A stretch of 64,000 nt of DNA, from positions 5,471,001 through 5,535,000 of the forward strand of contig NZ_LT607413.1 of assembly GCF_900091495.1 (NCBI RefSeq), given 5' to 3'. Below are positions 28,202 to 64,000 of this stretch, piece by piece (the first letter of the stretch is position 1; each line of letters begins with the position of its first letter). The notes below the pieces were generated by a model. The model searched no databases, was not told the DNA's origin, and saw only the letters and a program-made list of their open reading frames with translations. The stretch comes from Micromonospora echinospora (lineage in GTDB: Bacteria; Actinomycetota; Actinomycetes; Mycobacteriales; Micromonosporaceae). Made by a program: the position numbers and the translations under genes.

Positions 28202-31200
28202 ATGCTTCGGAGCGACCTGGTCCAGCCGTTGCCCGATCTGCTGAGGGCCCACGCCGCCCGGCTGGGGGACAGGGTCGCGTTCCGCGACGACCACCGGTCG
28301 GTCAGCTACGCCGCGCTCGCCGAGCGGACCCGCCGGCTGGCCGGGCACCTCGTCGCGACGGGGGTGGCCCGTGGCGACCGGGTCGCCTTCTGCCTGGGCA
28401 ACCGGGTGGAGACCGTGGAGACGTGGCTGGCCGTCACCCGGGCGGCGGCGGTCGGCGTGCCGGTGAACCCGCGCAGCACGGACGCCGAGCTGGCCCACCT
28501 GCTGGACGACTCCGGCGCGGTGCTGGTGGTCACCGACCCGCAGCACCTCGACCAGCTGCTCCGGCTGCGCCAGGACCGCCCCGACCTGCGGGTCTGGGTC
28601 ACCGGCACCGGTCCGGTCCCGGCCGGCGTCGCCGCCTGGTCGGAGCTGGTCGAGGCCGAGCCGCCGGTGGACGCCCGCGACGACCTCGGCCTCGACGAGG
28701 TCGCCTGGATGCTCTACACCTCGGGCACCACCGGCCGCCCCAAGGGCGTGCTCTCCACCCAGCGCACCTGCCTGTGGTCGGTCGCCTCCTGCTACGTGCC
28801 GATCCCCGGACTCACCTCCGACGACCGGGTGGTCTGGCCGCTGCCGTTGTTCCACAGCCTCTCCCACATCGGCTGCGTGCTCAGTGTGACCGCGGTCGGC
28901 GCGACCGCCCGGCTCGTCGACGGGTTCTCCGCCGAGGACGTCCTGCGCGCGGTCGAGCAGGACGAGGCCACGGTGCTCGCCGGTGTGCCGGCCATGTACC
29001 ACCACCTGGTCACCGCCGCCCGGGACACCGGCTTCCGCGCCCCGGCCCTGCGTGTGTGCCTGGTCGGTGGCGCGATCACCACCGGGCCGCTGCGCCGGGC
29101 CTTCGAGGAGGTCTTCGACGCGCCGCTGCTCGACGCGTACGGCAGCACGGAGACCTGCGGCTCGATCGCCGTCACCCGCCCCGACGAGCCCCGGGTCGAA
29201 GGATCCTGCGGCCGTCCGGTGCCCGGCGTGGACGTCCGCCTGGTCGACCCGGAGACCGGCCGGGACGTGCCCGTCGGGGTGGAAGGCGAGGTGTGGGTGC
29301 GCGGACCGAGCGTCATGCTCGGCTACCACGGCCGGCCCGCCGACACCGACGCGGTGCTGCGCGACGGCTGGTACCGCACCGGTGACCTGGCCCGCCGCGA
29401 CGACGCCGGCAACCTCTTCGTCACCGGACGGCACCGGGAGCTGATCATCCGGGGTGGCGAGAAGATCCACCCGGTCGAGGTGGAGGAGGTGCTGCGGACC
29501 GTCCCCGGCGTCGCCGACGTGGCGGTCACCGGCCGTCCGCACGAGGTGCTCGGCGAGGTTCCGGTGGCGTACGTCGTCGCCGGGCCGGAGGGTTTCGCGC
29601 CCCGGGCCGCCCTGGCCGCCTGCCGGGAACGGCTGGCCTACCACAAGGTCCCGCAGGAGCTGTACGAGATCGCCGCCGTACCGCGCACCGCGTCCGGGAA
29701 GGTCACCCGTCGGCTGCTGCCCGACCAGCCGGCCCGGCTGCGCGCGGTCAACGGCAGCCACCACGACGAACTGGTCCGGTTCGGCTGGGCCCCCCTGGAC
29801 CTGGCCGGTGTGCCGGTGCCGGACCGGCGTTGGGCGGTCGTCGGCGCCGACCACGCGCCACACGTCGGCGCCGGGGCCGCGCCGCAGCGGGACGCGGCCG
29901 ATCCGGACCGTCTCCGGTTCCACCCCGACCTGGCCGACCTGCGCGAGGGCGGGCAGGTGCCGGACGTGGTGGTCCTGCCGATCGGGTCGCCGGACGCGGA
30001 TCCGGTGTCGCTCGGAGGCTGGCTCGCCGACGACCGGTTCGCCGCCACCCGGCTGGTCCTGCTGACCACCGGGGCGGTGGACGCCTCGACCCCGGAGCGC
30101 GCCGACGACCCCGACCTCGACCCGGCGGCCGTGGCGACCTGGGCAGCGGCCCGGAGCCTCCAGGCCGCCCACCCGGACCGGATCGTGCTGGTCGACCGGG
30201 ACGCCGACGCGGACCCGTACGCGCTGCTGCCGGCCGTGGTGGCCACCGGTGCCGCCCAGGTCGCCCTGCGGGCCGGTGAGGCCCGCCACGCGCACCTCGG
30301 ACCCGTGCCCGTCCCGACCGGGGAGCGTGCGGCCACGGTCGCCGAACCGGTCGTGCTGGCCGGCGCGGACACCCCGCTGGGGGCTGCGCTGGCCCGGCAC
30401 CTGGTCACCGCGTACGGCGTGCGACGGTTGCGGCTGCTCGCCACCGGACCGGTGGACGCCCCCGCCCTGGCCGCCCTGACCGCCGAGCTGACCGCCGCCG
30501 GCGCCGAGGCCACCCCGCTGGCCTCCGGACCCGCCTCGGACCCGGCCGCCTCGGTCGGCGACGAGGAGATCGGGGCGGCCGTGCTCTGCCTCACCGCCGA
30601 CGCCCTCACCGCCGCCCACGACCTCGACGACCGCCCGGGCCGGCACCGCGCCGCCGACGACGTTGACCAGGGCGGGTGGCTGCTCACCCTCGCCGACGGG
30701 CTGCACCGGCGGACCCGGCACGCCGACGTCACCACCTTCACCGTGCTCGTCCCGACCGACCCGCTGCTCGGGGCGGCCGACGGCCACCGGGCCGCCGCCG
30801 TCGTCGGTTCCCTGCACGCCCTGCTCGCCCGACGGCGCGCGGCCGGGCTGCCCGCCCGGCTGGCCGGCACCGGGACCCACGGCCCCGCTCCGACGGCCGC
30901 CGCTCTCCGGCGCGACCTCGACGCCTTCGACGTGGCCCAGGACGGCGCCGACCTGGTCCTGCTCGCCCGGCCCACCGCCGGCCACCCGGCCTGGCGGGAA
31001 CCCGTACGGCCGACCGGTGACACCGCCGAGATGGCCGGGACGTTGCGCCGACGGCTGGCCGTGCTGACCGCCGCCGAGGGCGACCGCATCCTGCTGGACC
31101 TGGTCCGGGCGGCCACCGCCGAGGTCGCCGGACTGCCCGGCCCGGTCGCGGTCCGCCCCGGGCGGGCCTTCAAGGAACTCGGGTTCACCTCGGTCGGCGC

Positions 31201-64000: not shown

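Follow-up and report, generated by a model that had tools for sequence, protein, structure and literature searches.

We find that the window, the whole 64,000-nucleotide stretch of DNA analysed here (positions 5471001-5535000 of a single-contig genome of 7.78 Mb, placed in Micromonospora by its relatives), very probably covers the left-hand portion of a gene cluster of the quinolidomicin type, in which an AHBA-started line of 32 colinear modules would be released by a thioesterase as a very large macrolactone. In the proposed pathway, an upstream cassette would make AHBA, the presumed loading acid, and the CoA ligase of PKS A1 would activate it. The 32 modules, carried on 13 proteins, would then extend the chain in a presumably colinear order, the C-terminal thioesterase of A13 would release it by a predicted lactone closure, and a flavin monooxygenase (42999-44594) probably helps to oxidise the aryl starter to an aminoquinone. 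Judged by the published domain tables and text, the cluster is another member of a published scaffold type, its nearest counterparts being the 32-module clusters of AKA38, M. okii TP-A0468 and TP-A0316. This finding disposes of a false lead towards a new ansamycin. New here are a two-clade pattern in the presence of module 4 among the genomes checked, and its coupling to the ER domain of module 10 (ER10).

The PKS line and its starter genes

The flanks of the window were fetched, genes were called by GC3 bias, and domains were mapped with HMMs built from the window domains that Pfam had located; modules are numbered after PMC8698034, with number 4 skipped. A ketosynthase family search of the genome returned 65 matches, 32 of which form a single same-strand run from 5502367 to 5669361. 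The PKS line starts at 28127 and continues past 64000 to window coordinate 203011 (genome position about 5674011); the region shown holds the first 6 of the 32 extension modules, and most of the line lies outside the given coordinates. It is encoded by 13 PKS genes in one direction, with 2, 1, 3, 4, 6, 2, 3, 2, 3, 2, 1, 2 and 1 extension modules per gene (32 in total), and the C-terminus of A13 is a PF00975 thioesterase (E 1.8e-24). The genes are contiguous and colinear with those of M. okii, which rules out a separate right-hand PKS; the right-hand genes belong to the same line, as the original prediction had assumed. The PKS genes and their neighbours in the window are as follows.

28127..42967, + strand: PKS A1 (QnmA1 counterpart), with a loading CoL/KR remnant/ACP and modules 1 and 2
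28229..31312, + strand: loading module with CoA ligase, degenerate KR and ACP (domain map)
31361..36466, + strand: module 1, KS-AT(malonyl)-DH(His lost)-KR-ACP (domain map, motifs)
36512..42727, + strand: module 2, KS-AT(methylmalonyl)-DH-ER-KR-ACP (domain map, motifs)
42999..44594, + strand: FAD aromatic monooxygenase (PF01494; NF004829 at 630.8 bits, cut-off 390; same position in relatives)
44622..45509, + strand: SAM-dependent methyltransferase (PF08241)
45580..46383, - strand: type II thioesterase, editing (PF00975, E 3e-53)
46522..52143, + strand: PKS A2 (QnmA2 counterpart), module 3, KS-AT(malonyl)-DH-KR-ACP (domain map, motifs)
52161..64000, + strand: PKS A3 (QnmA3 counterpart, without module 4), modules 5, 6 and the start of 7 (domain map); the gene ends at 66224, outside the window

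The KR of the loading module has lost both its NADPH motif and its Tyr. In module 1, the DH has a gapped stretch without His where the other DH domains of the line carry the histidine of an HxxxGxxxxP-type motif. This histidine is missing from all nine A1 proteins compared (the window, M. okii and seven other genomes), ruling out an active module-1 dehydratase, and the Tyr and NADPH motif of KR1 are kept in the same nine. Consequently, the original prediction that module 1 works as a malonyl/KR module and retains the first hydroxyl is supported. That prediction had read the first six modules as malonyl/KR, methylmalonyl/DH-ER-KR, malonyl/DH-KR, malonyl/KR(B), malonyl/KR(A) and malonyl; functionally this order stands, although it did not list the DH of module 1, whose His motif is missing. 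After the single module of A2, A3 provides three KS-AT(malonyl)-KR-ACP modules. A KR with an LDD motif is of the B type, and a Trp ahead of the catalytic Tyr marks the A type. The module 5 KR has the LDD motif, and the module 6 KR lacks it and has the Trp ahead of its Tyr, so that the predicted succession of a B-type and then an A-type KR after the DH-KR module is borne out.

Across the whole line, the AT motifs, which distinguish malonyl from methylmalonyl substrates, are of the methylmalonyl type in modules 2, 9, 12, 19, 21, 23, 24, 26, 27, 29, 30 and 31. DH domains occur in modules 1, 2, 3, 8, 9, 10, 13, 14, 15, 19, 20, 24, 28 and 29, and ER domains in modules 2, 8, 9, 10 and 24. The catalytic Tyr is replaced by Gln in KR17 (A5) and by His in KR19 (A6), in the window line and in M. 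okii alike; the outcome of module 19 is uncertain, because its Tyr-less KR accompanies a DH that keeps an intact His motif. Directly downstream of A13, window coordinates 203120-212747 (L008:3120-12747) hold an ABC transporter pair (PF00005, PF01061) and a glycosyltransferase (PF00201, with an EryCIII-like C-terminus), with two large AAA/LuxR-type regulators on the opposite strand.

Between A1 and A2, the monooxygenase is a candidate for oxidising the AHBA ring towards an aminoquinone. The methyltransferase is 85-90% identical in five of the six relative loci compared, and it has no match in the sixth, L016. A + strand ORF (45547-46485) that overlaps the type II thioesterase matched no family. 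The order A1, monooxygenase, methyltransferase, thioesterase, A2 is kept in five Micromonospora loci (L011-L015), as far as their contigs reach.

Upstream of A1 lies the AHBA cassette.

19751..20572, - strand: aminoquinate/shikimate dehydrogenase-like, RifI-like (NCBIfam shikimate dehydrogenase models, below their cut-offs)
20598..21686, - strand: ROK-family sugar kinase, RifN-like, start codon uncertain (PF00480; NCBIfam N-acetylmannosamine kinase models below cut-off)
21965..22369, - strand: type II dehydroquinase (aminodehydroquinate dehydratase), RifJ-like, domain span only (PF01220, 5492965-5493369, E 8e-45)
23022..24164, + strand: AHBA synthase, RifK-like aminotransferase, start approximate (DegT family; phmmer)
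24197..25285, + strand: Gfo/Idh/MocA oxidoreductase, RifL-like, start approximate from the domain (PF01408 and C-terminal domains, ORF 23786-25285)
25374..26012, + strand: HAD phosphatase, RifM-like, start approximate from the domain (PF13419/PF00702, residues 355-530 of ORF 24312-26012)
26163..27317, - strand: aminodehydroquinate synthase, AroB/RifG-like, start uncertain (TIGR01357 aroB at 262 bits, cut-off 305)

In this order, the seven genes resemble RifI, RifN, RifJ, RifK, RifL, RifM and RifG. The listed ORF of the aminotransferase, 22569-24164, places about 150 extra N-terminal residues before the AHBA synthase, and its best phmmer matches among solved structures are AHBA synthase 1b9i (E 3e-185, residues 151-530) and 1b9h (1e-184). 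The prediction that AHBA genes adjoin the PKS is confirmed, the PKS being loaded by a CoA ligase, and an AHBA synthase lies upstream of A1, on the same strand and contig, in all 12 genomes searched. The cassette (19751-27317) contains no RifH-type aminoDAHP synthase. The genome's sole match to type II DAHP synthase, at 4246481, is distant from the cluster. A search of 12 genomes returned no such match next to the AHBA locus that accompanies the quinolidomicin-type cluster. Farther upstream in the window, an ORF of 1873 aa (3924-9545, - strand) carries NRPS condensation, adenylation, carrier and partial thioesterase domains together with a major-facilitator transporter domain; with the condensation-like proteins at 9728-12579, it suggests a separate small NRPS cluster.

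Macrolactone or macrolactam

In ansamycin biosynthesis, the macrolactam ring is closed by an amide synthase of the RifF type, a member of the PF00797 family. The window's 7.78 Mb genome has no PF00797 match, and we therefore expect a macrolactone and not an ansamycin macrolactam. Among the 12 searched genomes with a quinolidomicin-type cluster, the window genome included, four have PF00797 matches. In three of them (M. okii, or G069, and G066 and G142), the match belongs to a second AHBA locus, separate from the quinolidomicin-type one, whose AHBA synthase and type II DAHP synthase lie no more than about 5 kb away; in M. okii, KS domains follow in a row on the same contig. These second loci are probably rifamycin-type clusters. 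The fourth match (G035) is more than 100 kb from the cluster. Because PF00797 was detected at the second AHBA loci, the search is able to find the gene, and it found none at any quinolidomicin-type locus.

A CoA-ligase loading module is also a feature of rifamycin-type clusters. Rifamycin-type AHBA clusters, such as that for 16-demethylrifamycin in M. okii, accordingly resemble the window in their AHBA synthase and CoA-ligase loading, whereas the second AHBA loci of M. okii and the two other genomes have both PF00797 and a second type II DAHP synthase, and the window locus has neither. The 16-demethylrifamycin cluster of M. okii is reported in PMC8698034, where the M. okii t1pks-5 row of Table 4 starts with CoL/ACP.

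In the original prediction, the product was an ansamycin-type macrolactam, perhaps built on a new scaffold. The AHBA cassette and the CoA-ligase loading module are present as this reading needs, and the amine of AHBA could serve as the closing nucleophile. We nevertheless regard it as very improbable: the genome lacks PF00797 where three related genomes have it at second AHBA loci, a thioesterase ends the line after 32 modules, and published clusters of the same order have been assigned to a macrolide in the tables and text of PMC9967187, PMC9054317 and PMC8698034. We rejected an ordinary ansamycin on the missing PF00797 match and the 32 modules, and the macrolactam claim is not supported, given the same search and the terminal thioesterase. 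Nor is a new scaffold supported, since the AKA38, TP-A0316 and M. okii clusters share the module order in the published tables; a published cluster with this order, for which the original prediction had said to look, is AKA38 t1pks-8 (PMC9967187). We retain the thioesterase-released macrolactone as the expected product.

Comparison with published quinolidomicin-type clusters

The characterised cluster of this type is that of AK-AN57 (M. chalcea), with genes qnmA1-A13, CoL/ACP loading and a terminal Te (PMC8698034 Table 3); the reference entry for quinolidomicin A is MIBiG BGC0002520 (PMC11965639). The cluster exceeds 200 kb and has 34 modules, and quinolidomicin is a 60-membered macrolide whose revised structure places an amino group in the quinone (PMC9054317). 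Orthologs of qnm are described in Micromonospora TP-A0316 and M. okii TP-A0468 (PMC8698034). According to the text of that paper, TP-A0316 has no module 4 in its cluster, which is likely to produce a congener; Table 3 lists no module 4 for either strain and gives TP-A0316 the same 13-protein arrangement that the window line has. The AKA38 t1pks-8 domain string, which has no module 4, was assigned to quinolidomicin (PMC9967187). The published product assignments of AKA38, TP-A0316 and M. okii are domain-order predictions.

We compared the window line module by module against the domain tables of PMC9967187 and PMC8698034, and its tie to qnm is drawn from these tables. Measured against Table 3 of PMC8698034, the quinolidomicin-type features are present: modules 1-3 and 5-33 follow in order on 13 proteins and end in a thioesterase. 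Module 4 (m/DH/KR), which stands at the A3 start in AK-AN57, is absent, and A3 begins with module 5. Since module 4 is absent from the published congeners too, it does not define the wider quinolidomicin type. According to the same table, AK-AN57 is like the window in its CoL/ACP loading, its 13 PKS genes, the DH positions of modules 1-3 and 5-33 and its terminal Te, and the two lines are in full agreement at 27 of their 32 shared modules. It differs at six modules (4, 9, 10, 12, 19 and 23): AK-AN57 has module 4 (m/DH/KR) and no ER10, whereas the window has ER10 and no module 4; AT12 and AT23 are of the methylmalonyl type in the window and malonyl in the AK-AN57 table; and the table leaves AT9 untyped and AT19 missing.

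The remaining published lines are closer, and all three (TP-A0316, M. okii and AKA38) are tabulated with 32 extension modules, no module 4 and an ER10, like the window. AKA38 t1pks-8 agrees in 32 of 32 extension modules, with AT12 untyped in AKA38. TP-A0316 t1pks-2 agrees in 30 of 32, with AT23 read as malonyl and KR33 as absent there. The table row for M. okii TP-A0468 t1pks-2 has the same order, with some AT domains untyped or missing, split entries and no KR33. The loading rows of AKA38 and M. okii list no KR, in contrast to the degenerate KR of the window. The published tables list a DH in module 1 (PMC9967187, PMC8698034) because they record domain presence.

In our own domain map, M. okii TP-A0468 has the same 32 modules as the window, except that frame breaks interrupt one KS and one KR and that the AT21 motif is untypable; no loading KR and no KR33 rose above threshold, and its PKS genes are split in the draft genome. 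Its monooxygenase is 87% identical in the best segment of the monooxygenase scan, and identity to the window is 79-87% for the genes running from the monooxygenase through A2. Among the best 120 of 528 hits (1128 candidates scored), identity over the N-terminal 1060 residues of A1 is 95% with a 4933-aa protein of Micromonospora echinospora, 81% with M. pallida, 73% with M. okii and 67-68% with M. chalcea, so that the M. chalcea A1 proteins lie in the lower range of these identities.

Module 4, ER10 and predicted ring size in two clades

To the extent of the published sources, the absence of module 4 is already on record for TP-A0316 (text), M. okii (table) and AKA38 (string), and ER10 is readable from the tables. 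We found no published statement of their coupling in the accessible quinolidomicin literature, the primary 2018 paper and most subscription journals excepted. A search of 160 genomes of the genus for the monooxygenase gave 33 at E 1e-100 or better: 14 with at least 82% identity (the window included), 13 with 69-72% and 6 with only 42-56%. The two neighbourhoods fetched from the last tier (L086 and L087) showed no A2-A3 layout, and we treated the tier as other genes. In the first group, A3 was fetched from 11 others, leaving out G044 and G060, and one contig (G045) ended too early; the 10 other fetched A3 genes and that of the window (11 in total) start without a DH in their first module, that is, without module 4. 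In the second group, all eight fetched genomes (of 13) have a four-module A3 start whose first module contains a DH, the signature of module 4. ER10 is distributed in the opposite way: it is present in the window, M. okii and seven of seven other fetched first-group genomes (nine in total), and absent from eight of eight in the second. The second group therefore has both features that Table 3 of PMC8698034 gives for AK-AN57, module 4 and no ER10, and from that table we infer that it is quinolidomicin proper, with the window's group as its sister clade.

When two module-4 genomes were compared with the window line, the KS domains of modules 5, 6 and 7 paired one to one across the groups (84-86% identity; other pairings reached 78% at most), and by KS identity nothing in the window line corresponded to module 4; AT and KR domains pair less cleanly than KS. 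The idea that module 4 arose recently by duplication from elsewhere in the line was rejected, no source being found: in the same two of the eight fetched module-4 genomes, set against the window line only, its KS is 74-77% identical to several modules alike, and its AT, DH and KR name no single module. A monooxygenase tree of 30 rows (11 without module 4, 8 with it and 11 unscored) separates the module-4 states with one change (support 100/99).

Other parts of the cluster conflict with this split. By loading module, M. pallida (81%) is nearer to the window than M. okii (73%), and we dropped loading-module identity as a clade marker. The window AHBA synthase is 99% identical to the copy in G073 (G073:C2:2645417-2646556), a genome whose PKS belongs to the module-4 clade, which suggests that the starter cassette was exchanged between clades. 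Given these conflicts, the cluster has exchanged some of its parts, and we read a single event from the monooxygenase tree only.

If the line is colinear, with the same tailoring and closing hydroxyl, the absence of module 4 and the presence of ER10 predict a product with a 58-membered ring instead of 60. The lack of module 4 would remove C2H2 and ER10 would add H2, a net change of -C2, or -24.000 Da, relative to the quinolidomicin polyketide core. On balance, we favour the view that Micromonospora holds two chemotypes from one old split, which couples module 4 without ER10 in one clade and the reverse in the other, and that the product of the window clade is an undescribed macrolide with a 58-membered ring, lighter by C2 than the core of quinolidomicin.

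Alternatively, A2 may act twice with its module 3 and stand in for the missing module 4, which would keep the 60-membered ring and add 2.016 Da from saturation at module 10. A2 is a single-module protein with the domain set given for qnm module 4 in PMC8698034 Table 3, first-module iteration is documented for azalomycin F in PMC5518293, and the text of PMC9967187 predicts quinolidomicin itself from a line that lacks module 4. However, modules 5-7 pair cleanly by KS identity across the clades and module 4 has no counterpart in the window line, and we consider iteration by A2 unlikely; colinear extension has the higher probability. The exact mass forecast (-24.000 Da if colinear, +2.016 Da if module 3 iterates) would separate the two readings and reveal if one of the largest known macrolides is shortened by a natural difference of one module. 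Giant PKSs in which modules have been naturally inserted or deleted between intact flanks are useful templates for engineering.

The locus without a methyltransferase match, L016 of Actinomadura litoris, has a 56% identical monooxygenase beside PKS modules and is possibly a related aryl-started polyketide line outside Micromonospora.
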